32,060 nucleotides of DNA from Nitrospira sp. SB0677_bin_15 (lineage in GTDB: Bacteria > Nitrospirota > Nitrospiria > Nitrospirales > UBA8639), in assembly GCA_009842645.1 (NCBI GenBank), contig VYFB01000071.1, positions 1-32,060 on the forward strand, given 5' to 3'. Under the pieces are notes generated by a model. The model was not told the origin of the DNA, made no database searches, and saw only the letters and a list, made by a program, of their open reading frames with translations. Shown here one piece after another: positions 1,897-19,150 of this stretch (its first letter is position 1; every line of letters starts with the position of its first letter). The translations under genes and the position numbers were made by a program.

Positions 1897-3951
1897 ATGC
1901 CGCTGAGCTATCTGAAATGGAACGATATAATCGCCAGTCACTTCTTTTCCGAGGAGAAAGCGGGAAAGGAAGTTCTTCTCTATGTGAATGAATCCTTGAT
2001 AAAGGAACTAGGCGGACCTCACGGCGTCGGCCTCGATGGATTTGTGGCGGCAGTGAAGACCGGGCCTCCCTGGGCTACGAAGTCTGGCATATGCCAGAAG
2101 GCATTGCAGACCCTCGAAGCGTGGCGCGAGAAGGATCTCAATTACCCTCCATATATCGTATACTTGGCGCTCTACGTACTCGCAGCTGGCTTAGAAGGCA
2201 ACTATGCGCCCCACGCATACTATCCTAGGCTCAACGACCTTCTTGGCGAAGGGGGCGTTACCCAAAAGGGTCGGCCCCCGTCCTTCGAGCAAATGATCGA
2301 CCTCTGGGACGATCTTGAAAAGTGGAGCAGGGAGGACAAAAACGAGAACCTTGGGCGATTCGTCGCCCGCATTCGTGGACAGTGGTGGATGGTCGGCCTC
2401 CCCCTGTCACAAACCCTGATCTCTGAAGACGAGCGCAGGCGGCTACCGCTCTTGCTCAGCGAGCGAGCACTTGACCCCTCAGATCTCCCGTCGCCAGAGG
2501 TTATCCTCCGTCTCCTCCGCCAGGCTGCCGGATCGCTGCTTCAGCGCCGCACGCTTCGAGTCCTTGATAGCCATGACAGCGATGCCATGGTGCTCCGTGC
2601 TGCTCTGGCCGACGTGGTCATCGAAGAACTTGAGGCTTGGGATGGGAGCGTCTTCGAAGAAGATCATCCCGGACGGCGGGTCGAGGCGAAGAGAACCCAG
2701 ACCGCCCTACGTCTTTGCCTGAAGTATGACGCGCTGGCCCAGCTTGTAACCTGCCGCGTGCGTATCAAGACGGCTTCCACCATCCCGGATGACGGCTGCA
2801 CATTCGTACGTGAAGGCAGTGACTGTAATTGGATGTGCAAGGACCTCTTTGGTGGATGGTCGAGCACGCTATACGATCCTGCCGATTCCCGCGATCTTGA
2901 CGGCACGGCCCTCGACTGGAATCACGGCGAACGTTTTCTTGACGTAGATAACCAATGGACCGCCACGCTTCGCCCAGCTACCACCAGAGTCTTCACACCA
3001 GGCTACCCCGAAGGCCTTCCAGACTATATCGAGAGGCAGCGCTTGGAGCGGAACACATCGTTCCTAATCGCCACAAGCAACAATGTTGAAATGATTAAAC
3101 GATGGGGCGATCAGCATTGCAGCAATTTCAAACAACATAGTGCTGACGGACTCCCACCCGGCTGGATACTCTTTTCTGGCGAGAACGCGAGGCACTCATG
3201 TCCTGGCGTGGACGTTCTCACTATCTCCTCCACCATACGTCTGCTTGTAAGAGGGGGCGTCAAGACAGAACGGGGTAACGTGTACCTCAAGGGAGCGCCA
3301 CCCTACATAATGCTTGAAAACGCCCTAGGGACCGAGTCCGTCACTCTGGACACGCAGATTCTCGAAAGGGACGCGCACAGCAACATATGGATGATACCGG
3401 ACGATGCGCCCGAAGGAAGGGCACTTCGGATCGAAGCACATGGACACGAACAGCCCTTACGAAAGATAATCAGGCTAGAAAGCCCCCACCTTCCGTTGCG
3501 GGAAGATTACACTTCATTTTGCCGGAATCCGGCTGGCATGCCCTCGCAGGACAGCCCACAATATGCGTGTGGCGCCGTCGTCCACTACAAGCCAGGTGAT
3601 GGTCCGCCCACATACTCTAAAGACCTGCCGTTACATCTCTCGACACACGTCACTCTGGTCGGCGCGACACCGGGTCAAATTGCTGTCTGGCCTGAGGAGG
3701 ACTTGCCAGATTGGTTGCCAGTGTGGGCAATCGTCAAGACAGGCCGCAAGCAGGGTAAGGCAGTCTTCTGCGGAACAGAAGAACAGGCAGGGCGGCCCTA
3801 TACGAAGAGAAGGCCACAGGGGGAAAGGGCCTTGGTCAAACGATGGAAGGATGTCGTCTGGCACAACCGCAAGCGCATAGTGCCCCCCGAACTCATAATA
3901 CTCCGCAAGAGGTGGCACGAGTACATGGAGGCAGCGAAGGATGTCGAGTGA
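1897..3951 (+). CDS. Defence-operon protein, DruF-like by position (684 aa)
   Basis: This is the first gene of the operon, with a good ribosome-binding site upstream. The 684-residue product has no signal peptide or membrane segment and appears cytoplasmic. I recognise no catalytic motif. The N-terminal third is helical and contains a YYPRLNDLL motif near residue 108. The central part has several Cys and Trp residues (around 300-315, CTFVREGSDCNWMC), and the C-terminal third is predicted mostly beta. The stop overlaps the next gene by 11 bp, so translation is probably coupled. The following 340-aa gene and giant helicase reproduce the DruF-DruG-DruE order of type II Druantia as described by Doron and colleagues, so I infer this is the DruF-like member. 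The assignment rests on gene order and size, not on a sequence match I could verify. Confidence 0.5.
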   Translation: MPLSYLKWNDIIASHFFSEEKAGKEVLLYVNESLIKELGGPHGVGLDGFVAAVKTGPPWATKSGICQKALQTLEAWREKDLNYPPYIVYLALYVLAAGLEGNYAPHAYYPRLNDLLGEGGVTQKGRPPSFEQMIDLWDDLEKWSREDKNENLGRFVARIRGQWWMVGLPLSQTLISEDERRRLPLLLSERALDPSDLPSPEVILRLLRQAAGSLLQRRTLRVLDSHDSDAMVLRAALADVVIEELEAWDGSVFEEDHPGRRVEAKRTQTALRLCLKYDALAQLVTCRVRIKTASTIPDDGCTFVREGSDCNWMCKDLFGGWSSTLYDPADSRDLDGTALDWNHGERFLDVDNQWTATLRPATTRVFTPGYPEGLPDYIERQRLERNTSFLIATSNNVEMIKRWGDQHCSNFKQHSADGLPPGWILFSGENARHSCPGVDVLTISSTIRLLVRGGVKTERGNVYLKGAPPYIMLENALGTESVTLDTQILERDAHSNIWMIPDDAPEGRALRIEAHGHEQPLRKIIRLESPHLPLREDYTSFCRNPAGMPSQDSPQYACGAVVHYKPGDGPPTYSKDLPLHLSTHVTLVGATPGQIAVWPEEDLPDWLPVWAIVKTGRKQGKAVFCGTEEQAGRPYTKRRPQGERALVKRWKDVVWHNRKRIVPPELIILRKRWHEYMEAAKDVE

Positions 3952-4963
3952 ACTCCTTTACGCTATGAGTATATCGGCCTCACTGAGTTTTGACCGTCTC
4001 AATGACCTTTTCAGGATCGTTTGCAAACCATCGCCAGCTCAAGGACGAGGAGTTCAGTGGCCTGGCATCAATATGCGGCAGCAAGTCATAAGTTCCTTCG
4101 TGGCGCTTGGCTTCTTCGAGGTCGATTACTCACATCGTCAGCTACACATGTGCCCACCTGTGCTTGTACTGCTGCCGTCGCCGGGAACACCGTGTGCGTT
4201 GTTCACTGGAGGACGCGTGCCCGAGACTGTCAGGAGCCTACGTGAGGCAGTTCGTAAGACTGCCGGCCACGCACGACTTGTGCAACAGCCCCAGAGCATT
4301 GGATGGATCAATATGCCTGACCGCATCATAGTCGAGGCAGTTGACAAAGAAACGTTGTCAACTATAAGTCAGGAAGCCGGTATCGATTGCGACCTTGACG
4401 AGCCAGCGGCCTGGAAGCTCATCAATCTTTCGCTGTCCATCACAGAGATGAGTGGCAATGTTGCCTTCGAACCAAGGCAAGCGCCTAGCTGGACGTGCAG
4501 GATCTTCCGCGACGACCAGTTGAAGTTCAGCAGCGTAGGGAAACAGCCTGATCATTCCCTGTGGCTCGCGGAGTACGTGAACCCAATCGACAAGCAACGC
4601 AGGCACTGGCTTTGGCGGGCAGCCGATGCAGCGAAAGTAGAGCGCAACTGGGGGAGGTACATCGTACTCGCTGAGCAAGGCAGGAACGTCCTGCTCTATG
4701 AGGGCCGGTCCCGTGCGCTTGTTGTTCCAGCCACTACACCACTTCCAGGCCTGATAGCTCGAGCGGCTGCACTCTCAGCTGGGGCTCATCCGGCCGTCGG
4801 CACAACAAGACGCCCCCTTGCCTCTATCCCAGCAGGGCACCCTATGTTCCTCTACCAGGATGTTCCTTACGCGATAGTTGAAATGATAGCCACTAAGCTC
4901 AAGCAGAAGCTCGTGTGGATTGATATGGAGGATATCGTGCTCAAAGGGAACGACTATGAATGA
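3941..4963 (+). CDS. Defence-operon protein, DruG-like by position (340 aa)
   Basis: The start ATG lies inside the end of the upstream gene (11-bp overlap), behind a GAAGG stretch. The end overlaps the helicase gene by 8 bp (ATGAATGA). The 340-residue protein is soluble. Residues 15-60 (FDRLNDLFR to FFEVDYSHRQL) look like a winged-helix or adaptor fold. This is followed by a beta/alpha segment with LVLLPSPG and an FTGGRVPETVRSLREA stretch around residues 75-105. No nuclease or ATPase motif is visible. Its position between the 684-aa protein and the DruE-like helicase fits DruG of type II Druantia. Tight coupling on both sides suggests it works in a complex with them. The assignment is positional and tentative. 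Confidence 0.48.
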   Translation: MSSELLYAMSISASLSFDRLNDLFRIVCKPSPAQGRGVQWPGINMRQQVISSFVALGFFEVDYSHRQLHMCPPVLVLLPSPGTPCALFTGGRVPETVRSLREAVRKTAGHARLVQQPQSIGWINMPDRIIVEAVDKETLSTISQEAGIDCDLDEPAAWKLINLSLSITEMSGNVAFEPRQAPSWTCRIFRDDQLKFSSVGKQPDHSLWLAEYVNPIDKQRRHWLWRAADAAKVERNWGRYIVLAEQGRNVLLYEGRSRALVVPATTPLPGLIARAAALSAGAHPAVGTTRRPLASIPAGHPMFLYQDVPYAIVEMIATKLKQKLVWIDMEDIVLKGNDYE

Positions 4964-7900
4964 CCCCATCGCTGCTTTTGAAAAAATACGTGACAACTTC
5001 ATCTTGTATGTCAAGACTGCTTTTGGGACACGCTTCCCAGGCTTGGAGGAAGAACGCGAAGAACTTCTCCGGCAGCCCGGCGTCCTGAACCAGGAGCCTT
5101 GGCTCGAACCACTTCCCTCATACCAAAGTTCCGGTAAAACCATCGACGATCTTGACGGGAGCGACCTCCCAGGACTGAATGGTCATCAACAAGATTTGTT
5201 TAAGAGCTTTGTTAAGTGCGGCCTTTTTGGCGACAACAAACTGCATCACCACCAGGTCGTCATGCTGCAGCGAGTCCTCACCGGCCGGCACTGCGTCGTT
5301 ACCGCAGGGACAGGTTCAGGCAAAACCGAAGCCTTTCTACTGCCCCTCTTCGCTCAACTCGTCAAAGAAGTGCCTGGATGGTCACGGCCAGGCCAACCTC
5401 ACGAGCATGTCCATGATTGGTGGAATAACCGCGATTGGCAAGACAGCTGTAAGAAAGGAAATAAGTTAGAAAGATCATTTAGGGTCCCGCAAAGAGGCCA
5501 CGAAGTGCGGAGGTCTGCAGTCCGGGCGCTCATCCTCTATCCCATGAACGCCCTCGTCGAAGACCAGCTCACGCGCCTCAGAAAGGCCCTTAACTCGGAC
5601 CAGGCTCAGACATGGTTCGAAGAGCAATCCCCAGGAAACCGCATCTACCTTGGCAGATACAACGGCTCTACACCCGTTGCGGGCCACGAACTACGGAGAA
5701 CAAGGAATCCACACACGGAAAAAATCCTTGAACTCTGTGAGCGAATGCAGGAAGCCGATAAGGCCTATGAGGCCGCCTGCCAGCATGCACGAAAGAATCC
5801 CCGAGACTGCGAGGTTATCGACTTCTTCCCAAGCCTCAACGGGGCTGAGATGAGAAGCAGATGGGATATGCAAGACCAACCGCCAGACATCCTTATCACA
5901 AACTTCTCGATGTTGAGCATCATGTTGATGCGCGAGGCGGATGAGCCTATTTTCGAGAAAACACGCGAATGGCTCGAAGGCGAGGACCTGCCAGCTGACC
6001 AACGCGCGCAAACCAAAGAATCACGCGTGTTCCACCTCATCGTGGACGAGCTGCACCTTTACAGGGGCACGGCTGGTGCGGAGGTTGCCTACCTTCTCCG
6101 CCTCCTGCTCCATCGGCTCGGCCTCCATCCCGATCATCCCCAGTTACGCATCCTGGCGTCAAGCGCATCGCTCGAGGCACAGGATCAACGGAGCCGCCAG
6201 TTCCTTAAGGACTTCTTCGGATCTGCAGACTTTGATGTTATCGAAGGCATGCAAGAACCGATGCTAAAGCCAAGCACCGCTCTGCCCCTAGCTCCTTTCG
6301 AGCACCTCGCCGTTGCGTCTGAGATCACCGACGCCACACTGGCCGAAGCAGCAGAAATGCTGGGCACTGACAGCACGCCCGTGCGCTTCTTTGATGCCGT
6401 GGACAGCCTCGACCTGCAGGCGCACCTGCTTGACGCCTGCATCATTGATCGTGCAGTACGTGCCGTCTCACTCACTGACATGGCTAAACGACTCTTTCCA
6501 AGCCACAATCTTAATGCGGCCAAGCAGGGGGTCAGAGGAATACTGATGACCAGCTCTCTTTTTGAGCAGTATGAGCGGGAACGGACGGTCCCCTCCTTCA
6601 GGATCCACTGCTTCTTCCGCAACATCGAGGGGCTCTGGGCGTCGTCCAAACCTTTAGCAGGCACGCCTGACAACAGGCCCATTGGTAAGCTCTACCCTGA
6701 CACGCGGATCATCTCAGACGGCGGTCATCGCGTTCTCGAGCTTCTCTACTGTGAACACTGCGGAACAGTATTCCTCGGAGGTCAAAAGCTGGTTACTCCT
6801 GAACAGGAGATAGAGCTTCTCTCGACCACTCCCGACATCGAGGGTATCCCAGAGAGGCAGGCAGCGAGGTTTGTCGAGCGCAGGACGTATCGGGAGTTCG
6901 GTGTCTTTTGGCCCCAAGGAGACCAGGAGTATGATAAACCTTCACGCTGGCGTCATTCTAAGTTCCGAGAAATTCGAAGAGGCCGGAACGCGTGGGGCGA
7001 ATGGCGGCAAGCGAGCCTCAACACCCACACCGGCCACCTCAGGCCCACTCACGAGGATGCAAAAAGACAACCAGAGCAATGGGAAAGAGGCTACATCTTC
7101 CACGTGGAGGCTCCTCGAGACGAAGAAGACGAGTACAGAGCGCTCCCTTGCGTCTGCCCAGCATGCAGCACGGACTTCGGGAGCCGCCAGAACAGGAAGT
7201 CGCCAATCCGTGGATTCAGGACAGGTTTCTCAAAGGTCAGTCAAATCTTCACTAAAGAGCTTTTCTACCAACTGCATTCAGAGTATGCCACAAGCCGAAA
7301 GCTTGTCGTTTTCTCCGATAGCCGTGAGGATGCTGCACAAATTTCGAATGGCGTCGAACGCAATCACTACTCCGACCTTGTCCGGGAGATCGTTTGCGAC
7401 GAACTCCAAGCGGCCATCAAGGGTCTTCCCGCTCTTATCGAAGATCTCGAACAGAAAGTCTCTCTGTCGCTCACCGCACAAGAGTATGTTGACAAACACC
7501 CGGGAGAATATGAACGTTACGGCAACCTCACTCAGATGGCAGACCTCGCAAAGGAGGGCATGCCAAAGCCGGTCCAAGACGAAATAGATAGGGCCCAATA
7601 CAAGATCGTCCAAGCCAAGGCGAGCGGCCGTGACCGCATTGTACCAATATCGGCAGTGCTCCCACCGACAGACGACCTTCGGGATTGTGGAATCCTTATC
7701 AGGCGACTCATTGCTAACGGCGTGAACCCAGCAGGCAATCACGTTCTTCTACAGGAGTTCCTTTGGGAAGAAAAGTACCATCACTGGACAACCCTGTTCG
7801 ACTTCGAGAACCTCACGTGGCAGCAAGGCCTGCCTCAAGGAGCCCACTATGCTAGAGAGAGGATAGTTGGGACACTTACTGCAAAGCTTTGCGATCTCTT

Positions 7901-10646
7901 CTTCGGCCGCCTCTATTTTGGACTGGAAGCTGCAGGGCTTGGATGGATCAAACTGCAGATAGATCCCGCAGAACAGCGGCGATTGGGCACTACAGCAGGG
8001 CTGTCACACCATGAATTTATCGAAGTCTGCGACGCATTTGTCCGCGTCCTCGGCGACAGGTTTCGACATGAGGGGTCAGAATATCCGCAGGTTGACTGGC
8101 CGAACTACGGCGATTGCGCAGCCCGTATTAAGCGCTACGTTCGCCAAATTGCCATCGAGAAAGGTGTACGGGAAATAGCCCTGGGCGATGCGATCTACGC
8201 GGCCCTATGCCAAGGGGGCCACCAGAACGGTATGCTCACAACAGGCAGGCTCAGCGTACGCGTCACAAAAGATGACGATCCTGTATGGGAATGTCCTAGG
8301 TGCGCCCGATACCATCTCCACCATTCCCCAGATATCTGTACCGCATGCCAGGCGAAACTCCCGAAACGTCCGCAGAAGATCTGCCGTGAGCTATGGAATA
8401 ATAATCACCTTTCTTATGCCGTAGCGGAGAAGCGCAAGCCTATTAGACTGCATTGCGAGGAACTGACAGCACAAACTGACAACCAACTCGAACGGCAACG
8501 ACACTTTCGCGGAATCATCGTTGACCTCCCCAATCAGCAACGAATCCGGCATATTGACGAGATCGATACTCTCAGCGTTACAACAACCATGGAAGTCGGG
8601 GTCGACATCGGGAGCCTCCAGTCTGTCTTCCTCGCCAACATGCCGCCCATGAGGTTCAACTACCAACAGCGAGTGGGACGCGCTGGACGTCGGGGCCAGG
8701 CTTTCGCTCTGGCTCTTACCCTCTGCAGGGGCCGCAGCCACGACGAACACTATTTCTCAGCACCCGAACGCATCACCGGTGATCCCCCGCCCGTTCCTTT
8801 TCTCACGATGAACCAGCCCCGGATCGTCCGTCGGCTTCTTGCCAAGGAGTGCCTCCGCCAGGCATTTAAAGGCGCAGGGATGAGATGGTGGCACAGCCCC
8901 ACGCCGCCAGACAGCCACGGGGAGTTCGGGCTCGCTAATGATGATGAAGCCCAGGCTGGGTGGCTGCAAAATCGCGCGGCCGTCGAAGCCTGGCTTGCAC
9001 GAGAGAAGGAAGCACAACGGGCGGTTATTAAAACACTGCTTGGCGACAGTTGCGACGAATACCTACTGTGGCTTGAGCAAGACCTGCCTCAACAGATACA
9101 CCAAGCCCACAATAACCCAGAACTCGCGGGCGAAGGCCTCGCCGAACGGCTCGCTGAGGCAGCCGTCCTCCCCATGTTCGGCATGCCTTCAAGGAGACGG
9201 CTCCTCTACCACCGCCTGACGCGGAAGGGCCAGAAGGGAGAACAAACTATCGATCGCGATCTTGAACTGGCCATCACCGAGTTCGCACCTGGAGCACAGA
9301 AGACCAAGGACAAAGCCGTCCATACCGCGATAGGCTTCACGCCACCAATCTACCGGCAAGGTCAAAAGTGGATGCTATCGTCTGAAAACCCGCTCCCCTT
9401 CAGACGGTGGGTGCAATGGTGCAAGGCCTGCGGTCACATGAGGACCGATGATGTCAGGCGAGAACCACAAGATCACTGTCCGCACTGTGGACACCCAAGA
9501 GGAGAGGACGGCTACTATCGGCAGTTCGAGATCGTAACCCCGCTGGCATTCCGCACAGACCTAACAAGAGGAACGGATGCCAAAGAGGATCAGAACGTCA
9601 TTTTCGGTATCCCGTCGGCGATGGTAGAGGCCAACGAGGAACCACACAGATACACGCTTGACGGGACTAACTGCACCAAGGCGCTTTCCGATCAAGGCAC
9701 CGTCTGGAGGATCAATGATAATGCAGGCAGATTCTACCACGGTGCCTTAGTGACCACTCCCTCTGATAACCAAAGAGGTATACCCCACCTCGATCACCAA
9801 TGGATCGAGGAACAGTATGGAGGCGGGGACCATGACCGGGTTGCTCTTGCAGCCGCCAAGACGACCGAAGTGTTGCGCATCGCACCCGTCGGCGCACCCA
9901 AAGGACTCACACTCAACCCAGCCTCAGCCCACGGCGGGGTCAGGGCCGCACTCTACTCAGCAGCGTTCCTGCTCCAACGTGTGTTGGCCGACCGGTTTGA
10001 CATCGACCCTGAAGAGATCGAAGTAGGAAGCATCACCTCGCGCAATCTCGACGAAAACACGACCGTCGCCGACATCATCCTCAGCGACCGCCTCCCTAAT
10101 GGGGCAGGCTTCGTTAGAGATGCCTACGAGAGCCTAGCGGACATCCTGAAGGGCATCCACAATCCTTACCAGGGCTCGTATGCCGAGAGAATCAACGGAC
10201 ATACACATCAGACTAATTGTGATGCAGCATGCTACGACTGCCTTAAGGTGTACCGCAACATGACCTACCACGGGCTGCTCGACTGGCGCTTGGCAATCGG
10301 TTACCTGAAGGCACTGCAGTATCCAAATTACCGGTCTGGCCTCGACGGCAAGTTCAGCACGCCGGAACTCGAAGGATGGACAAAAACAGCCACGATACTA
10401 AGGGACAACTTGATAGCATACTTCGACGACTACAAGCCGGCGACTTGGGGAGGCGTGCCAGGATTCACCGTGGGAGAAAAGCGCGTCCTTGTCGTCCACC
10501 CGCTCTGGGATACGCGGAATGCGTCCGGTCTCCTCGCAGACGCCATCACGGCAGCAGGAGGTGAAGTCTACGGTTGCATAAACACGTTCAACCTCCTACG
10601 GCGTCCAGCCAAGTGCCGATCCATGTTAATCGAGGGAATTGAATGA
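4956..10646 (+). CDS. druE: Giant SF2 helicase with DUF1998/MZB-type C-terminus, DruE-like
   Basis: I start the gene at ATG 4956, behind AAAGGGA and overlapping the upstream stop; an in-frame ATG at 4920 is less likely. The product is about 1896 aa. Helicase motifs in order: Walker A GTGSGKTE near residue 118, motif Ia ILYPMNALVEDQL, ITNFSMLS, motif II DELH near 363, motif III SSAS, and a second RecA-like lobe beginning around LVVFSDSRED near 785. Motif V (TTMEVGVDIG) and motif VI (QRVGRAGRRG) lie near 1210-1245. Four Cys-rich zinc-ribbon-like clusters lie near 595, 730, 1110 and 1490. The C-terminus carries the DUF1998 signature (CxxxCYDCL, then H..LDW) near 1760. Length and architecture fit DruE, the helicase common to Druantia systems; DISARM DrmA and DrmB split these parts into separate proteins. 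It probably translocates on DNA as the motor of the system. The next gene overlaps by 4 bp. Confidence 0.85.
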   Translation: MNDPIAAFEKIRDNFILYVKTAFGTRFPGLEEEREELLRQPGVLNQEPWLEPLPSYQSSGKTIDDLDGSDLPGLNGHQQDLFKSFVKCGLFGDNKLHHHQVVMLQRVLTGRHCVVTAGTGSGKTEAFLLPLFAQLVKEVPGWSRPGQPHEHVHDWWNNRDWQDSCKKGNKLERSFRVPQRGHEVRRSAVRALILYPMNALVEDQLTRLRKALNSDQAQTWFEEQSPGNRIYLGRYNGSTPVAGHELRRTRNPHTEKILELCERMQEADKAYEAACQHARKNPRDCEVIDFFPSLNGAEMRSRWDMQDQPPDILITNFSMLSIMLMREADEPIFEKTREWLEGEDLPADQRAQTKESRVFHLIVDELHLYRGTAGAEVAYLLRLLLHRLGLHPDHPQLRILASSASLEAQDQRSRQFLKDFFGSADFDVIEGMQEPMLKPSTALPLAPFEHLAVASEITDATLAEAAEMLGTDSTPVRFFDAVDSLDLQAHLLDACIIDRAVRAVSLTDMAKRLFPSHNLNAAKQGVRGILMTSSLFEQYERERTVPSFRIHCFFRNIEGLWASSKPLAGTPDNRPIGKLYPDTRIISDGGHRVLELLYCEHCGTVFLGGQKLVTPEQEIELLSTTPDIEGIPERQAARFVERRTYREFGVFWPQGDQEYDKPSRWRHSKFREIRRGRNAWGEWRQASLNTHTGHLRPTHEDAKRQPEQWERGYIFHVEAPRDEEDEYRALPCVCPACSTDFGSRQNRKSPIRGFRTGFSKVSQIFTKELFYQLHSEYATSRKLVVFSDSREDAAQISNGVERNHYSDLVREIVCDELQAAIKGLPALIEDLEQKVSLSLTAQEYVDKHPGEYERYGNLTQMADLAKEGMPKPVQDEIDRAQYKIVQAKASGRDRIVPISAVLPPTDDLRDCGILIRRLIANGVNPAGNHVLLQEFLWEEKYHHWTTLFDFENLTWQQGLPQGAHYARERIVGTLTAKLCDLFFGRLYFGLEAAGLGWIKLQIDPAEQRRLGTTAGLSHHEFIEVCDAFVRVLGDRFRHEGSEYPQVDWPNYGDCAARIKRYVRQIAIEKGVREIALGDAIYAALCQGGHQNGMLTTGRLSVRVTKDDDPVWECPRCARYHLHHSPDICTACQAKLPKRPQKICRELWNNNHLSYAVAEKRKPIRLHCEELTAQTDNQLERQRHFRGIIVDLPNQQRIRHIDEIDTLSVTTTMEVGVDIGSLQSVFLANMPPMRFNYQQRVGRAGRRGQAFALALTLCRGRSHDEHYFSAPERITGDPPPVPFLTMNQPRIVRRLLAKECLRQAFKGAGMRWWHSPTPPDSHGEFGLANDDEAQAGWLQNRAAVEAWLAREKEAQRAVIKTLLGDSCDEYLLWLEQDLPQQIHQAHNNPELAGEGLAERLAEAAVLPMFGMPSRRRLLYHRLTRKGQKGEQTIDRDLELAITEFAPGAQKTKDKAVHTAIGFTPPIYRQGQKWMLSSENPLPFRRWVQWCKACGHMRTDDVRREPQDHCPHCGHPRGEDGYYRQFEIVTPLAFRTDLTRGTDAKEDQNVIFGIPSAMVEANEEPHRYTLDGTNCTKALSDQGTVWRINDNAGRFYHGALVTTPSDNQRGIPHLDHQWIEEQYGGGDHDRVALAAAKTTEVLRIAPVGAPKGLTLNPASAHGGVRAALYSAAFLLQRVLADRFDIDPEEIEVGSITSRNLDENTTVADIILSDRLPNGAGFVRDAYESLADILKGIHNPYQGSYAERINGHTHQTNCDAACYDCLKVYRNMTYHGLLDWRLAIGYLKALQYPNYRSGLDGKFSTPELEGWTKTATILRDNLIAYFDDYKPATWGGVPGFTVGEKRVLVVHPLWDTRNASGLLADAITAAGGEVYGCINTFNLLRRPAKCRSMLIEGIE

Positions 10647-11734
10647 GTGTGCCAACTGACCCAACAGATCTGCCGGGCCTGTCTCCGTTACGACGGATAT
10701 CCCCCAGCAGTTATTTTCAGTTTAAGCAGTGTACGCTTCGTGCGGTTTGGCAGGCTAACGGGAAAATGTCGATCCTCCCTGTCTCTCCGGCTGCCAGGCT
10801 AGGCTCAGTGGCCCACAGGATTCTCGATCTTGCCGGGCGGGGTCGCATTGATAGCGAAAGTCTATATGAAGCCTGGGAGGATGCAGTAAGCCGTGTTGAA
10901 CGGCAGATGTGTCATGCGGGGGAGGCCCACCTTATTCCGCTGTGCAACGGTGCTCGGAGATATGAAGTCAAGAAAAGCCTTACATTGGCAGCAGCGCGGA
11001 GGATTACCGCCGAGTTCCCAGCGTCCTCCATTTCTGAGGCTACAGTTGGCCACGCCGCCCGTTCCGAGGTCTGGTTAGAGAGCAGCGACGGGCTCTTGGG
11101 CGGATTCGTCGACCGCATCGTGCCCGGCAAACACGGCGTGGAGATCGTCGACTACAAGACCGGCGCGGTGACGGATCAGCGTACAGGGAATGTCAAGGAA
11201 GCGTACGAGGTCCAACTCCTCCTCTATGCGTGGCTTTACCACGAGAACGATGGTGAGTGGCCGGCCCGGCTGACCGTGACGACCCTTGCCGGGGCCAAGC
11301 ACGATGTGCCAATGGACGTTACCCAGGCCTGTCAGCTTGTCGACGAAGCACGTTGCAGGCTCCGGGAGATCATCTTAGCGGGCTCACCTCCCGAAAGTCT
11401 TGCAAACCCCAGTCCCGCCGCTTGTGCCTTCTGTGGCTACAGGCCAGCGTGCAAGAAGTACTGGGAAAAACGAGAACAGAGTCCAAAGTGGCCTACAGAT
11501 GTTTTGGGTACCTTGAGCAGCGTGGAGATGCTCGGTAACGGGACCCTATTCATCGTGCTCGGGACCGGCGAGCAAAGAGTGACAGTTAGGGGACTCTCTC
11601 CAGGACGCTTCGAGTTCCTCATGCAGGCCGTACCAGCCGCAATGCTTTGCAACCTGCGGTCTGATGTAGCAAAGGCTTCGTATAGACAAACGCACCTGAC
11701 CACAGGATACGCTCTCGAGGAATGGAAACCATAG
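10643..11734 (+). CDS. PD-(D/E)XK nuclease, RecB/Cas4-like, probable Fe-S cluster
   Basis: The gene overlaps the helicase stop by ATGA. The 363-aa protein has a RecB-family nuclease core: an SPSSYFQFKQC start, RLGSVAHRILD near residues 54-64, GGFVDRI and VEIVDYKTG (the D...(D/E)XK metal site) near 152-176, and QLLLYAWLYH near 190. One Cys near the N-terminus (QC, about residue 30) and a C-terminal CAFCGYRPAC cluster near 256-265 match the four Cys that hold a 4Fe-4S cluster in Cas4/AddB-type nucleases. The last 80 residues form a separate beta-rich segment that could be an OB-like fold. A DruE-type motor next to a RecB-like nuclease suggests DNA unwinding coupled to cleavage. This gene is not part of the core Druantia set as I know it. 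Confidence 0.85.
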   Translation: MSVPTDPTDLPGLSPLRRISPSSYFQFKQCTLRAVWQANGKMSILPVSPAARLGSVAHRILDLAGRGRIDSESLYEAWEDAVSRVERQMCHAGEAHLIPLCNGARRYEVKKSLTLAAARRITAEFPASSISEATVGHAARSEVWLESSDGLLGGFVDRIVPGKHGVEIVDYKTGAVTDQRTGNVKEAYEVQLLLYAWLYHENDGEWPARLTVTTLAGAKHDVPMDVTQACQLVDEARCRLREIILAGSPPESLANPSPAACAFCGYRPACKKYWEKREQSPKWPTDVLGTLSSVEMLGNGTLFIVLGTGEQRVTVRGLSPGRFEFLMQAVPAAMLCNLRSDVAKASYRQTHLTTGYALEEWKP

Positions 11735-12864
11735 ATAGTGGGGAAACTGTGAGTAAGGCCATTCCGCTCTTGTCGTTTTTCACCGGCGGTGGATTTATGG
11801 ACATCGGGTTTGAGCAGGCAGGCTTCAAGACCGTCTGGACAAACGAGCACAACCCTGTTTTTGCGAGCATGTACGCGTACGGCATGACTCTATGGCGACA
11901 AGCAACTGGCAGGCACATCCTCCCCGCGCGCATTACAAACACCAGGAATGTCCAGCACCTATCTGCGCGGGTGATAGAGAAGCAAGCCTTCCCACAGGGC
12001 AAACCCCTCCTCTTCGGTGTTATTGGCGGGCCGCCCTGTCCTGACTTTAGCAGTGGTGGCAGGCACCAAGGCGGCAATGGCCTGAACGGAAGGCTGACTA
12101 AGACCTACGTTAATCGCATCACGTCACTTATGCCACAATTCTTTGTCTTCGAAAACGTAGCTGGGCTCTACCGCATAAAGGCTAACCGTGCGTACTTGCA
12201 GAAGCTGGAAGAGCAACTCCAAACATCTGGCTATTGTTTGGACCTGCGGATTATGAATGCCCTGGAAATGGGCGTGCCTCAGGACAGGGAGCGCCTCATT
12301 ATGGTCGGAGTGCACCAGCATCTCGCCAAGGTATGCGCTAGTCGCATGATTGAGAAGGCGGAGAGAAATTGGTTCCCGTGGCCGGAACTTTTTGACTTCA
12401 CGGGAGCGAAGACACGCTTTAACTGGCCGCAGAAGGGGCCGTTTGGACGAACTCCATTGCGGCCCAACCGCATCCCCTACCAACTCACGGTTGCCAGCGC
12501 CTTCCGTTCGCTGCCGTCAGAGAACAAGGACGAAGTCTTCAACGCCTACTCAGAGCGCTTCAAAACAGTTCAGGAGGGGGATACCAAGCGCAAGTCCTTC
12601 AAGCGCCTGCATCGCTACCGTTACAGCCCGACGGCCTGCTACGGCCATAATGAAGTGCACCTCCACCCATGGAAAGAGCGCCGCCTGAGTGTCAGGGAGG
12701 CCATGCGCATCCAGGGCATCCCCGATGAATATTCCCTCCAGCCCGACCACTCTCTCAGTGCTAAATTCGCTGTCGTTTCCAATGGCGTTCCGGTACCATT
12801 GGCTTTCCAGGTCGCCAAGAGTCTCAAGGAATTCTTGCGGCCAGCACTCAAGATAACCCGATAA
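11722..12864 (+). CDS. DNA (cytosine-5-)-methyltransferase, DruM-like
   Basis: This 380-aa enzyme transfers a methyl group from S-adenosylmethionine to C5 of cytosine. The conserved m5C motifs appear in order: motif I FFTGGGFMDIGFEQAGF; motif IV GGPPCPDFSSGGR with the catalytic Cys; motif VI ENVAG; motif VIII QDRERLIMVGV; motif IX REAMRIQGIP; motif X SNGVPVPLA. The variable region between VIII and IX, which sets the target sequence, is about 110 residues. The ATG at 11722 overlaps the nuclease gene by 13 bp; a GTG at 11749 is an alternative start. Type II Druantia includes a cytosine methylase (DruM), and this protein may fill that role, marking self DNA. The directly following Vsr gene makes a Dcm-Vsr-like pair. 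The target site cannot be read from sequence. Confidence 0.9.
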   Translation: METIDSGETVSKAIPLLSFFTGGGFMDIGFEQAGFKTVWTNEHNPVFASMYAYGMTLWRQATGRHILPARITNTRNVQHLSARVIEKQAFPQGKPLLFGVIGGPPCPDFSSGGRHQGGNGLNGRLTKTYVNRITSLMPQFFVFENVAGLYRIKANRAYLQKLEEQLQTSGYCLDLRIMNALEMGVPQDRERLIMVGVHQHLAKVCASRMIEKAERNWFPWPELFDFTGAKTRFNWPQKGPFGRTPLRPNRIPYQLTVASAFRSLPSENKDEVFNAYSERFKTVQEGDTKRKSFKRLHRYRYSPTACYGHNEVHLHPWKERRLSVREAMRIQGIPDEYSLQPDHSLSAKFAVVSNGVPVPLAFQVAKSLKEFLRPALKITR

Positions 12865-12871
12865 CGATAAC

Positions 12872-13312
12872 GTGGACATCTGGAGCGAAAAGAAACGCAG
12901 CGAAGTCATGTCGCGTATCCGTAGCGAAGATACGAAACCAGAGCGTATCGTCCGTCGCCTCCTCACAGAAATGGGTTGCCGCTATCGCCTCAACGTGAAG
13001 ACCTTCCCGGGGAAGCCGGATATCATCCTGAAAAAATACAATGCCATCATCTTCGTGCACGGCTGCTTCTGGCATCTCTGTCCCCATTGTAGAGAGGGCC
13101 GCATCCCAGCGACACGATGGGAGTACTGGGAAGAGAAACTCCTGAACAACAAACGCCGTGACCAGAGCAACATCCGCAAGCTCCGGCGGCAAGGGTGGAA
13201 AGTACTAAGACTCTGGGAGTGTGATGTCGAGAAAAAGCCTCAAAAAGTCACCCGGATCCTTCAGAGATTCCTCTCGCACTTTCCTAAGACAAGTAAACAC
13301 ATGAGCCCGTAG
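12872..13312 (+). CDS. vsr: Very short patch repair endonuclease
   Basis: The gene starts at a GTG (12872) 7 bp after the methyltransferase stop; the product is 146 aa, the usual Vsr length. Family landmarks are all present: FPGKPD with the catalytic Asp near residue 50, HGCFWH with His63 and His68, the following C-P-H-C (70-73) of the structural zinc site, PATRWEYWEEKL, and the late WEC Cys. Vsr nicks 5' of the T in T:G mismatches produced when 5-methylcytosine deaminates, which starts short-patch repair. It normally partners a cytosine methylase, as here. It probably protects the host from mutations caused by the upstream methylase, but a nicking role in defence is possible. Confidence 0.92.
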   Translation: MDIWSEKKRSEVMSRIRSEDTKPERIVRRLLTEMGCRYRLNVKTFPGKPDIILKKYNAIIFVHGCFWHLCPHCREGRIPATRWEYWEEKLLNNKRRDQSNIRKLRRQGWKVLRLWECDVEKKPQKVTRILQRFLSHFPKTSKHMSP

Positions 13313-14010: not shown

Positions 14011-14301
14011 TCAGCCCTGTCCCGTGGCCAGCAAGGCGCGCTTGACGGCCTCCGGTTCCCGTTCGAGCACGCGCAGAAGCGTGGCGGCGGGGCCGCTGAC
14101 CCGACGCGTTCCCTGTTCCCACTTCCGATAACCAGAAAGGCTCATGCCCATCAACGGGGCCATCTGCGCTTGTGTGAGCTTGGCGTGCTTGCGCACCTCA
14201 CGCGGCGCCACGGGGACATGGACGAGGGCCGGGCCTTCGCCGTTGGCATGGGCTAGGGCTTCATGGAGTGATTGGATCAGATCGTCGCCAAAAGTAGTCA
14301 T
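14011..14301 (-). CDS. HTH (XRE-type) antitoxin of a RelE/HigB-like module
   Basis: The 96-aa product has a helix-turn-helix in its C-terminal half (LTQAQMAPLMGMSLSGYRKWEQG, about residues 43-64), of the XRE/HigA type, ending in a helical tail (LLRVLEREPEAVKRAL). It follows the toxin gene with a 4-bp ATGA overlap. Toxin-first order is typical of higBA-like modules. The antitoxin should bind the toxin and repress the shared promoter at 14643-14671. Such pairs often stabilise islands against loss; here it lies between the integrase and the defence operon. Confidence 0.85.
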   Translation of the reverse strand: MTTFGDDLIQSLHEALAHANGEGPALVHVPVAPREVRKHAKLTQAQMAPLMGMSLSGYRKWEQGTRRVSGPAATLLRVLEREPEAVKRALLATGQG

Positions 14302-14636
14302 GTGCTCTCCTTCCGGGTGGCCTTGAGTGCGGCGGCAAGGGCCGCAACCAGGCGCTTTTCGTCTGGCGTCAGATCGGTTTTCGTGGCCTTCGTATAGGCG
14401 AGGAGCGCATAGACCGGCATGGCTTCGTCGAGATAGTAATAAATCACCCGTGCGCCGCCGCGCTTGCCTCGTCCGGAGGTTGAGAAGCGCAGTTTGCGGA
14501 CACCGCCCGTGCCTGGAATGTTATCCCCCGCCAGAGGGTTTTTCGCCAAAAAGTCGATCAGTTCTCGTTTTTCATCCTCGCTGAAGAGCTTGTCGGCCTG
14601 CCGCATGAATGTCGGAGTCTCGACAACTGTCTGCAT
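14298..14636 (-). CDS. RelE/HigB-family toxin
   Basis: I start at ATG 14636 (MQTVVETPTF), giving 112 aa; an ATG 18 bp upstream would place the start upstream of the likely -10 box. The protein has the RelE-like pattern: an N-terminal helix pair (TFMRQADKLFSEDEKRELIDFL), NPLAGDNIPGTGGVRKLRF, then a beta-core GGARVIYYYLDEAMPVYALLAYTKATK and a lysine-rich helical end. This matches the HigB2/RelE-related group that cleaves mRNA on the ribosome. It is coupled to the antitoxin by a 4-bp overlap. Confidence 0.85.
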   Translation of the reverse strand: MQTVVETPTFMRQADKLFSEDEKRELIDFLAKNPLAGDNIPGTGGVRKLRFSTSGRGKRGGARVIYYYLDEAMPVYALLAYTKATKTDLTPDEKRLVAALAAALKATRKEST

Positions 14637-14642
14637 CGTCTC

Positions 14643-14671
14643 ACTATATCCCAATGGGGCAGTTACGGCAA
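14643..14671 (-). promoter_or_regulatory. Candidate promoter of the toxin-antitoxin pair
   Basis: On the minus strand, TTGCCG (14666-14671) and TATAGT (14643-14648) are separated by 17 bp, a good sigma-70-like match. Only six bases lie between the -10 box and the toxin ATG, so transcription would begin at or next to the start codon, giving a leaderless message. Confidence 0.5.
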
Positions 14672-14721: not shown

Positions 14722-15936
14722 TCAGGGAAAAACATAAGATATGGGACCCACCGGGTAATCGTATTCAGGATGCCTTGCCGTCATCTTCTCCAAGACCAAC
14801 GCCGCCCCATGTTCAGCGGTTTGGGATAAGGTCGCGCCTTGTTGGACGTATCGGTTCGCCATTTGTAACGTCTTATGCCCGGCCGCGTCTCGGATTGCGA
14901 AGGCTCCGAAACCGGCCCCGGCCAGCATCGTCAAAAAGGATCGCCGCAAGTCATGTAACCGGCAACCGGAAAGTCCTGCTTGTTCACAAGCCAAAAGGAA
15001 CACCATGCGTGTTTGTCGGTAGGTTGCCGGAACAGAAGGACGGGAAGACGGAAAGACCCACGGACTTCCGTTGATTCGCGGAATTTGTCCAAGAATTTTT
15101 TTAACCGGAATTGCCAAGATGATCGTTCGCTTGCCGACTTTTGTTCGCGGGAGTATGGCCCTGGAAGTTTCAAGGTCAATGTTGGACCATTCGAGACTTA
15201 GTACTTCAGAAATCCGCAATCCGCTCATGGCCGAAACAACAATTGCCCCGACTGCAAACGGGTAAGTCTTTTCCAACTTCAACAAGGCCCCGTTCAACTT
15301 TTTCAGTTCACTCGGAGATAAGACGCGACTCCGGGCTTCCTCTCTTGCCCGTGTAATTCCTTTTGCCGGATTTGAATTTTGATTCCTCCATTCCCATCGT
15401 TCAGCCAAGGTAAATAATCGGGAACAGGTTGCTAAGGCACGATTTCTCAGGATAGGGGTGTTCGTCATACGTCTTGCCATCCCTTCAATATCGTGTTTTG
15501 TGATTGTCTTGACTCTCATCGTTCCCAACCCCGGCAACAAGTGAGTCCGCGCTATATTCCGGTATTCCTTCAACGTCTTTTTCGACATCCGGCCCAAACT
15601 GATCTGTTCCGGTACAAACTCGGTTTCATACCGAGTCCACAAATCGACAAACGTCGGGGCGTTCCTGATCGCGTTCCGTCGCGTCTGGACGCTATCCTCT
15701 CCCGCCTGTACCTTGAGCAGTTCTGATGCGGCCCGAGCGCGTATATCCTTCAATGTCGTTTCTTCGACACGGGCTAGCTTCGCCATGACGCGTTTCCCTC
15801 GGTCCGTGAACATGAGGATGTACGACTTCGCGCCTTTTGGAAAAACTCGTACAGCAAGACCACGGACTTTTTCATCCCACAGGATGTAAGCCGTAGCTTT
15901 TGGTTTCGCCTCTTTGATCATTGCTTCTGTCAACAT
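14722..15936 (-). CDS. int: Tyrosine recombinase (island integrase)
   Basis: The 404-aa protein starts at an ATG behind GGGAGAG. The N-terminal part is an arm-binding/DUF4102-like domain (residues 1-90, AYILWDEKVRGLAVRVFPKGAKSYI). A SAM-like core-binding domain spans about 90-190. The catalytic domain has Arg in SGLRISEVLSLEW (about 240), Lys in RTKVGKRT, HDLRRS (about 320), GHKT and the Tyr nucleophile in MANRYVQ. It is the P4-like, tRNA-targeting type and should integrate and excise the island between 97-175 and 16179-16257. It lies 242 bp from attR and reads into the island. All catalytic residues are present, so it may still be active. No excisionase gene is recognisable. Confidence 0.95.
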   Translation of the reverse strand: MLTEAMIKEAKPKATAYILWDEKVRGLAVRVFPKGAKSYILMFTDRGKRVMAKLARVEETTLKDIRARAASELLKVQAGEDSVQTRRNAIRNAPTFVDLWTRYETEFVPEQISLGRMSKKTLKEYRNIARTHLLPGLGTMRVKTITKHDIEGMARRMTNTPILRNRALATCSRLFTLAERWEWRNQNSNPAKGITRAREEARSRVLSPSELKKLNGALLKLEKTYPFAVGAIVVSAMSGLRISEVLSLEWSNIDLETSRAILPRTKVGKRTIILAIPVKKILGQIPRINGSPWVFPSSRPSVPATYRQTRMVFLLACEQAGLSGCRLHDLRRSFLTMLAGAGFGAFAIRDAAGHKTLQMANRYVQQGATLSQTAEHGAALVLEKMTARHPEYDYPVGPISYVFP

Positions 15937-16178: not shown

Positions 16179-16257
16179 GGCTGACTCATAATCAGTTGGT
16201 CCCAGGTTCAAGTCCTGGTGGGCCCACCATACAATCAATCAGTTATAAAGATTTGAA
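16179..16257 (+). repeat. attR: right copy of the 79-bp direct repeat
   Basis: This is identical to 97-175. Only the 3' part of the tRNA is present (from the anticodon stem to CCA plus 28 bp). The upstream sequence cannot form a D arm or acceptor strand, so this copy is not a functional tRNA. Confidence 0.92.
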
Positions 16258-16286
16258 TGAAGTGAGAAAGAGGAAAACTACAAAAA

Positions 16287-16427
16287 CAAGCCCGCCTCCT
16301 TCCTTGGCTCCACGCCTGACCACTCCCTTCGATTTTGAATGATAGTCCCGGACAGCGATGCCGTCTGTTCTGCGGTCTCCTGCCTTGCCACGGCGTAGCC
16401 CGTTTGCCGGTTGCTCATGCCCATTCT
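16287..16427. repeat. 141-bp repeat, right copy (outside the island)
   Basis: It aligns ungapped to 303-443 with 22 differences (84% identity). Only 29 bp separate it from attR, and that short stretch also resembles a shortened form of the sequence after attL. It probably represents the left end of an older element. Confidence 0.8.
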
Positions 16428-16801: not shown

Positions 16802-19150
16802 ATGATGCAGAATCGGTATATTGCAATAGTTGTCGCGGCGATTTGTCTTATCTCTCTGGCTGCTTGCGGCGGCGGTGGAGGCAGTGGGTCAAGGCCTACC
16901 ATCGTCACTCCGGCTCCCGAGCCCACACCTCCTCCTGATCCTACCGCTAACCCCTCATATCACCTCAACACGGCACGCTTTACGACACACCAACCAAAAG
17001 TACTCGAACAGATCGGGGCGCATCATGCCTACGCCAGGGGCCTCACCGGCAGGAGCGTGCGGATCGGGATCGACGATACTATCGTCGATTACACGCAAAG
17101 CAGTGAATTCGGAAACCGGGTAAGGCTGCGAGAAGCGGATGGGGCGAGCCTTGGTTACGCACGTCCGGATGGAGACCTGATCTTCAGCGATGTCGGCACC
17201 TGCATATTGTTCGACCCATCATGCAGCACGTGGGAGGGCAACAGCGCGGGAGATCCTGAAGCGGTCAACAGATGGGTGCGCCAGATCGTTGACACGGATG
17301 GCTGGCCCACCAGCGATGACTCCGTATTTGTGGTTGATGAGTACTACGACGAAAACGACCTGATCGAGAGGTTGTTTCGCTGGACGGAAGTGCCGACACC
17401 CTATGGTCAAGAAGGATCCCACGGGACCATCGTTGCTTCAGTTGCAGCAGGAGAGAATCTCGGGGTTGCCCCAGGTTCCACCATTATTCCAATCGCGCAA
17501 AATTTATCGGACGACCAAAGAACGAACGCCTTCGCGGACGAAACCTTGCGACGCTGGATCTCAGTGCTCCCGGTTACAGCCCGCAGTACCCTTGATGATG
17601 GACTCGCAAGCGCCCAGCGAGACAACTACGCGAAGTTCGACATTATCAACCGGTCCTACGGAATTCCTTTGTTCGATCCGGATGTGGTCTCCAGCGAGGT
17701 TGGTTCTGAGTTGCAATGGTATAGACGGTACCTACCGAAGTACTTGGATGCCATCTTGCAAGCCGATAGAACGAATGCTGAAAAAACCATACTTGTCTAC
17801 GCCGCAGGCAATGAAGGAGAGCTTTGGTCAGGCTTGGGAGCGGACCTGCCCTACTACATCCCGGAGCTGCGCGGGCACTCCCTTGCTGTCGCCGCTACAA
17901 ATCCTGAAACAGGGGTTATCGCGGACTTTTCAAACAGGTGTGGCCCCCTTCCATCTAACTGGAATGCCGTAAGCCATGGACCGCATTACTGCCTTACGGC
18001 TCCAGGTATCGTGCGAGGTCTCGTGCCCAACCTCAACAGCCCCGGAAGCGGAGACGTTGGGAATGGAATACCAGGCACCAGCTTTGCCGCGCCGCTCGTT
18101 TCGGGCGCGCTCGCCCTGCTGATGGAGCATTTTCGAGGGACCCGAGGCAATACAGAAGTCGTGAGGCGCATGTTGGATACGGCTGATCGCAGCGGCCGGT
18201 ACGCGAACTCGGCCATCTATGGCGCCGGGCACTTGGACCTGGAAGCCGCCCTTTCACCTGTCGGTACGTTGAGTGTGGGACAATCGGCACGTGGGCTCTA
18301 CGATAGTTCGCTTCAAGTGCCGGCAATCTTTGGCTCGATCACGAACCGCGTGGAGGGGCTGGAACTGACGGCCTTTGACGAGCAGAACTTTCCCTTTTGG
18401 GTGCCCCTGTCCTCCAGGGTAAGAAGCGGCACGGCCATACGTTCCACGATTCCCATGTTCCAGAGCCTTCAACGCAATGCTGCACCGGCCCCGGGGTTTG
18501 AATCCATGGGCATGAATTGGACCCCGATTCAGAATACGGGGAAGCTGGGTCTCCCGGAAGGCCAAGACTACGTGGTCGGCTTCGGGCCGTCATCCATGAG
18601 CTTTGCTCGCCAACCCCAACAGGGCGGGTTCGGCTATGGATTCAACGTCAACGATGGGAATTACTTGGGAGCACAAACGTCCGGAGCCTTTGGCCGGAAT
18701 CTGCGGTCCGGGATGGTCTGGACCTCGCATGCGATTGTTCAGGAGTTGGGCTACGGGTTGACGCTCAACGCCACCGGCACGGTGGGGATGAGTCTCCCGG
18801 ACTATGAACAGGATGCGATCTTTCAGGCATCCTCTTCACTCCTTTCTGCCATGGCTATTCGTGTGGGCACCCCGCAAACCGTCCTCATGATTGAGCAACC
18901 CTTACGGGCGGAGACGGGCACCGGCACGTTCCGCATTGAGAATGGGCGCATGGAGAACGGCCGGAAACTGTATGACAAATACCGCATTCGGTTGAGCCCT
19001 GAGGCCAGGGAAATCCGGTTGGCCTTGCATCATGAGCAAGACGCCATCGGGGGGAAGATTGCCGTGGAGGTCGGACAGACCATGAACTCTGGTCATATTC
19101 CCGGCCGGCAGGATTCGCGCCTCGGCTTCGCATACCGGCTGATTTGGTGA
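16802..19150 (+). CDS. Secreted subtilisin-like (S8) serine protease, lipoprotein
   Basis: The 782-aa product begins with a lipoprotein signal (ISLAAC, lipidated Cys22) and a Gly-rich then Pro-rich linker. The S8 peptidase domain follows: Asp in IGIDDTIVDY (about 90), His in GSHGTIVAS (about 205), Asn of the oxyanion hole in YAAGNEG (about 335) and Ser in GTSFAAPLVSGALAL (about 425). After about residue 480 comes a roughly 300-residue beta-rich region ending in LGFAYRLIW. The aromatic end resembles an outer-membrane beta-barrel, as in serine-protease autotransporters. Two adjacent ATGs are possible; the second (16805) has better spacing from AAGGAGG. A small lipoprotein gene follows 4 bp downstream. 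The substrate is unknown. Confidence 0.88.
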   Translation: MMQNRYIAIVVAAICLISLAACGGGGGSGSRPTIVTPAPEPTPPPDPTANPSYHLNTARFTTHQPKVLEQIGAHHAYARGLTGRSVRIGIDDTIVDYTQSSEFGNRVRLREADGASLGYARPDGDLIFSDVGTCILFDPSCSTWEGNSAGDPEAVNRWVRQIVDTDGWPTSDDSVFVVDEYYDENDLIERLFRWTEVPTPYGQEGSHGTIVASVAAGENLGVAPGSTIIPIAQNLSDDQRTNAFADETLRRWISVLPVTARSTLDDGLASAQRDNYAKFDIINRSYGIPLFDPDVVSSEVGSELQWYRRYLPKYLDAILQADRTNAEKTILVYAAGNEGELWSGLGADLPYYIPELRGHSLAVAATNPETGVIADFSNRCGPLPSNWNAVSHGPHYCLTAPGIVRGLVPNLNSPGSGDVGNGIPGTSFAAPLVSGALALLMEHFRGTRGNTEVVRRMLDTADRSGRYANSAIYGAGHLDLEAALSPVGTLSVGQSARGLYDSSLQVPAIFGSITNRVEGLELTAFDEQNFPFWVPLSSRVRSGTAIRSTIPMFQSLQRNAAPAPGFESMGMNWTPIQNTGKLGLPEGQDYVVGFGPSSMSFARQPQQGGFGYGFNVNDGNYLGAQTSGAFGRNLRSGMVWTSHAIVQELGYGLTLNATGTVGMSLPDYEQDAIFQASSSLLSAMAIRVGTPQTVLMIEQPLRAETGTGTFRIENGRMENGRKLYDKYRIRLSPEAREIRLALHHEQDAIGGKIAVEVGQTMNSGHIPGRQDSRLGFAYRLIW

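Follow-up and report, generated by a model that had tools for sequence, protein, structure and literature searches.

A type IV-like Druantia operon with DruM and a separately encoded, predicted Fe-S nuclease beside a helicase with a degenerate nuclease-like domain

The locus described here raises the question of how a Druantia system whose helicase DruE carries a degenerate C-terminal nuclease-like domain could cut DNA. The window analysed, 32,060 nucleotides from a Nitrospira genome, corresponds to a complete contig (G000:C94) in an assembly of 2.55 Mb that is 99% complete. Six intact open reading frames were read on the plus strand between positions 1897 and 13312. A sequence-only reading had taken them for a type II Druantia operon extended with a nuclease and a Vsr protein, which could supply the missing cleavage activity. 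The features of the locus are as follows.

71-147: tRNA-Met gene, its 3' part lying inside attL
97-204: direct repeat attL, the first 79 bp identical to attR
1897-3951, plus strand: druF, 684 aa (PADLOC DruF4, 678 bits; DruF2, 651 bits)
3941-4963, plus strand: druL, 340 aa (PADLOC DruL4, 266 bits, residues 1-330)
4956-10646, plus strand: druE, about 1.9 kaa (PADLOC DruE2, 1881 bits; DruE4, 1843 bits; both full length)
10643-11734, plus strand: druK, 363 aa (PADLOC DruK profile PDLC00060, 103.5 bits; PF12705)
11722-12864, plus strand: druM, 380 aa (PADLOC DruM2 profile PDLC00030, 411.5 bits; PF00145)
12872-13312, plus strand: vsr, 146 aa, GTG start (TIGR00632, 126.9 bits; PADLOC Vsr, 99.9 bits)
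14722-15936, minus strand: tyrosine integrase gene adjoining attR (PF00589, 71 bits; PF13356)
16179-16286: direct repeat attR

When druE is started at the ATG at 4956, the spacings between the six genes are -11, -8, -4, -13 and +7 bp, and the tight operon first described was thereby reproduced. An alternative TTG start of druE lies upstream at 4920; the homologues align from the Met at 4956, and the TTG is probably unused. Each of the six proteins matched a PADLOC family profile with an E-value no higher than 1e-29, which excludes chance. For the helicase, the nuclease, the methylase and Vsr, Pfam and NCBIfam agreed with PADLOC, and the druF and druL products matched no Pfam or NCBIfam family. 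The Druantia identity of the operon, with DruF first, a single-chain DruE, a DruM-type methylase, a PD-(D/E)XK nuclease and Vsr, was thus confirmed by these matches. Promoter and terminator scans gave results no better than those of shuffled sequences.

Judging from the attachment repeats and the integrase, the operon is cargo of an island of about 16 kb at the tRNA-Met gene. To the right of the island lie housekeeping genes (an aminotransferase gene, serA, the histidyl-tRNA synthetase gene and dnaB). None of the 13 further genomes available for the genus yielded a DruE, which points to horizontal acquisition. Several further elements were observed in and around the island. Beside the attachment repeats there is a second pair of direct repeats (302-443 and 16286-16427; 142 nt, 85% identical), perhaps left by a previous insertion at the tRNA-Met site. 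Inverted repeats with arms of 22 nt and 17 nt occupy positions 1020-1235, where the DNA between tRNA-Met and druF is rich in GC. Inside the island, a toxin-antitoxin pair consisting of a RelE-type toxin and a helix-turn-helix antitoxin is encoded on the minus strand (14011-14301 and 14298-14654), after vsr and before the integrase gene. Just outside the island, 16802-19150 encodes a large protein that looks secreted, with subtilase-like motifs and an N-terminus resembling that of a lipoprotein (read by eye), possibly an autotransporter.

The assignment to type II stood only in part. The matches to DruF2, DruE2 and DruM2 speak for it. The second protein, however, which had been taken for DruG, matched the DruL4 profile, a marker of type IV, and none of the six proteins gave a match to a DruG profile with an E-value of 0.01 or lower. 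Since DruG is absent and DruL present, the type II label was rejected. Type IV in PADLOC comprises DruE, DruF and DruL and is described as lacking the DruM and DruG of type II (PMC8565338). In its DruE, DruF and DruL, in the absence of DruG and in its tight arrangement, the present operon is like type IV; against the wording of that description, it nevertheless has a DruM2-class methylase, and it has DruK and Vsr in addition. Type II (DruM-DruF-DruG-DruE) is resembled in the slightly higher score of DruE2 over DruE4, in the DruF2 match and in the DruM2-type methylase. It differs in that the present operon has DruL in place of DruG, has DruK, and has its methylase gene not in first position but after those of the helicase and the nuclease. 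With type III (DruH-DruE) the operon shares a central YprA-like helicase, but it has no DruH, its nuclease is a separate gene, and its DruE is without the PLD nuclease domains that type III DruE is reported to carry at the C-terminus. The likeness to class 2 DISARM is one of concept (helicase, DUF1998 module, nuclease and cytosine methylase): there, the helicase and DUF1998 are two proteins and the nuclease is of the PLD type, whereas here they form one chain and the nuclease is of the PD-(D/E)XK type. By its profile matches, the operon is a type IV-like member, with DruM, of the known Druantia family.

From its Pfam domains (DEAD, Helicase_C and MZB, the DUF1998/MrfA zinc-binding domain), DruE is a YprA/MrfA-like SF2 helicase, and its match to the Druantia profiles extends through the DUF1998-type C-terminal region. 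The residues of Walker A, DELH and motif VI are kept in essentially every aligned sequence. A solved DruE-like helicase in the PDB (9wae) matched DruE with 786 bits, and there are six more such entries; a literature search found no paper describing 9wae. The C-terminal domain is, as read from the alignment, a degenerate Vsr/PD-(D/E)XK-like domain. The (D/E)xK motif is missing from it in 83 of 83 aligned sequences, and the position aligned by eye with the catalytic Asp of Vsr is Gly, Ala, Ile, Val or Met, and never Asp, in these sequences. This result is in line with the independent prediction by Bell et al. (PMC12458937) that type I and type II DruE end in Vsr domains that are inactivated. Cutting by DruE through its own C-terminus was rejected on the basis of the missing motif.

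The gene adjoining druE, with an overlap of 4 bp, is druK. Its product matches the DruK profile PDLC00060 and is predicted to be a PD-(D/E)XK nuclease of the Cas4/AddB/Dna2 type with a 4Fe-4S site formed by C30, C261, C264 and C270. These four cysteines, together with H58, D157, D170, K172, Q191 and Y195, are invariant in 43 of 43 aligned homologues. We take this arrangement to be that of the AddB, Cas4 and Dna2 nucleases with a 4Fe-4S cluster. A search of the PDB with the DruK profile matched UvrD/Rep-type helicase-nucleases and Dna2. The view that the nuclease lies outside the known core set did not hold, since PADLOC-DB 2.0.0 already contains DruK profiles; for the same reason, and because the gene recurs beside DruE, an unknown add-on was rejected. 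In the literature search, no paper turned up that treats DruK as part of Druantia, and no experiment on any DruL- or DruK-containing system was found in the searchable literature.

Relatives of the operon were collected by scanning 84,980 species genomes with an alignment of four DruE sequences. The scan gave 428 relatives, from which we retained the 80 best loci. These represent the top-scoring portion of the DruE2/DruE4 branch and were not sampled at random. Every locus was searched for homologues of DruF, DruL, DruK, DruM and Vsr with iterated profiles from the window proteins, and the adjacency and fusion counts take in the window as well as six loci that came from plasmids and from class relatives. 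Among the best 80 of the 428, DruF-DruL-DruE-DruK-DruM(-Vsr) is a recurrent gene order, seen in different bacterial phyla as well as in archaea, and the genes often overlap. The full order from DruF to DruM was found in Omnitrophica, Aminicenantes, Fischerbacteria, Planctomycetes and Methanophagales, and in fused form in Bacteroidota. DruK directly follows DruE on the same strand in 49 loci (gap of 30 bp or less in 45, usually with an overlap), DruM directly follows DruK in 26 (30 bp or less in 23), and Vsr directly follows DruM in 12. In the DruE tree, the nearest relatives of the window belong to Omnitrophica (61% identity), Fischerbacteria, Aminicenantes and Planctomycetes, and one is archaeal. 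Those on long enough contigs have the same order from DruF to DruM, and three have Vsr. The first two proteins thus proved to be related to Druantia families, and the gene order is conserved elsewhere. The suggestion that the nuclease and Vsr genes both accompany DruE in other genomes was borne out for DruK and only partly for Vsr, which is present in 33 of 81 loci and tied to the methylase.

The tree distances of the proteins were compared with those of DruE. Spearman rho was 0.92 (DruF), 0.91 (DruL), 0.85 (DruK), 0.62 (DruM) and 0.59 (Vsr), and the maxima reached by permutation were 0.20-0.41; rho between DruK and DruM was 0.735. In the common set of 36 loci that have DruE, DruF, DruK and DruM, the values were 0.937 for DruF, 0.915 for DruK and 0.734 for DruM, and DruK exceeded DruM in 200 of 200 subsamples of this set. 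The contrast was smaller in the 21 loci that also have Vsr (DruK 0.89, DruM 0.78, Vsr 0.79). The invariant catalytic residues, the position next to DruE and the co-variation with DruE suggest that the cleavage is probably supplied by the predicted nuclease DruK, one of the two sources first proposed. DruK is missing from the cyanobacterial DruF-DruL-DruE clade (L049, L050, L057, L081, L084 and others, with no DruK beside DruE) and from some loci of Alphaproteobacteria and of Acidobacteria type whose flanking sequence is long enough, and in three Bacteroidota loci DruE is followed directly by DruM. DruK is therefore not strictly required everywhere, and the helicase may work without it.

A fusion of DruF with DruL occurs in 30 loci, the majority from Bacteroidota, among the 80 fetched loci, the window and a few earlier ones; in one such fusion (locus L058), PADLOC recognises both halves. 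These fusions suggest that the two proteins work together, probably as one unit. Hints at their roles from the predicted folds are weak. The model of DruL (pLDDT 92.6) has a winged-helix-like N-terminus (residues 1-72; weak match, Z 5.0-6.5, VIA) and also ferredoxin-like parts (weak Z only, VIA). The model of DruF (pLDDT 84.9) has a helical N-terminus and a beta-rich middle, and residues 445-530 form a weakly Ig-like domain (Z 8.0, VIA). Foldseek searches of the PDB with both models gave nothing at E 0.001 or better, and profile searches against PDB sequences gave no credible match. On DruL in Druantia, the literature search returned only the PADLOC paper (PMC8565338).

We propose the following course of events, which as a whole seems to us rather probable. 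DruF and DruL would recognise the infection or the invading DNA and load DruE, which as an ATP-driven, MrfA-like helicase would translocate on the foreign DNA and unwind it. Because the nuclease-like domain of DruE itself is degenerate, the exposed strand would be degraded by the separate Fe-S nuclease DruK. DruM would methylate host cytosines, perhaps as a self mark, and Vsr would repair T:G mismatches that arise by deamination of the 5-methylcytosine made by DruM. That DruM may mark self is suggested by its place in the operon; its weaker co-variation with DruE lends little support to this role. It is only tentatively that we entertain the reading in which DruF, DruL, DruE and DruK form one machine, with cutting outsourced to a Cas4/AddB-like Fe-S nuclease, and methylation by DruM sets self apart from non-self. 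The literature search found no paper on a methylation-gated helicase-nuclease branch of Druantia.

It is worth considering whether the same proteins could instead act by abortive infection, DruF and DruL sensing a late phage protein, DruE and DruK destroying host and phage DNA, and DruM having no part in self/non-self discrimination. Druantia III has been reported to be late-acting or abortive and to be triggered by phage structural proteins (PMC13192584; PMC13316683), and the Ig-like part of DruF recalls the Ig-like region of DruH. That fold match is weak, however, and the methylase inside the operon points to modification-based discrimination. Moreover, the related ARMADA system was reported to be non-abortive (PMC12458937). 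We thus regard abortive infection as a doubtful explanation.

Another reading concerns the composition of the machine. DruF, DruL and DruE might constitute the whole of it, and DruK, DruM and Vsr might be a modular restriction-modification-like cassette that travels along and acts separately. The cyanobacterial loci with only DruF, DruL and DruE would fit such a cassette, as would the lower co-variation of DruM and Vsr with DruE and a type II-like locus of Rhizobium in which Vsr, DruM and a type II restriction-enzyme-like gene lie upstream of the Druantia genes. DruK, however, co-varies with DruE nearly as DruF does and more closely than DruM, and lies directly behind DruE, usually overlapping it. 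A separately acting cassette therefore appears unlikely, and we retain DruK as the nuclease that would act with the DruF-DruL-DruE machine.

As to the last two genes, DruM is, by its PPC and ENV motifs and its family matches, a DNA cytosine-5 methyltransferase, and its best solved relative is M.HaeIII (1dct, 108 bits by phmmer). The vsr product is predicted to be a very-short-patch-repair T:G mismatch nickase. It scores well above the TIGR00632 cut-off of 97.85 bits, matches E. coli Vsr (1cw0) with 105 bits, and has the catalytic residues E24, D50 and H68, which are invariant in 35 of 35 aligned sequences. A cytosine methylase lies within 10 kb in 33 of 33 loci with Vsr, compared with 28 of 48 loci without it (Fisher P 3.8e-6, a statistic that ignores shared ancestry). 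Since Vsr never occurs without a cytosine methylase in these loci, it is most likely a companion of the methylase that repairs its mismatches. The only other Vsr gene of the genome overlaps the cytosine methylase gene of a second defence operon, which is Mza-like (L133, G000:C102, 444-7608, minus strand) and encodes the methylase, Vsr, MzaB, MzaC with a Z1 domain, and MzaD. No paper on Vsr in Druantia was found in the literature search. That Vsr is an additional defence nuclease supplying the cleavage, as had been suggested along with DruK and as its conserved catalytic residues and the Vsr-type domains fused to a helicase in ARMADA systems (PMC12458937) might indicate, is very improbable and was disfavoured, given its strong match to the E. 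coli mismatch endonuclease, its absence from more than half of the loci, its dependence on a methylase, and the same pairing in the unrelated Mza-like operon.

The published work that we found on the mechanism of Druantia concerns type III, in which the nuclease is fused to DruE. For the branch in which the C-terminus of DruE is degenerate, the present locus and its relatives offer a testable answer to the question of how DNA could be cut: the candidate cutter is the Fe-S nuclease of the neighbouring gene, which is conserved and co-evolves. The same loci are also a reason to see Vsr as a companion of the methylase and not as an effector.
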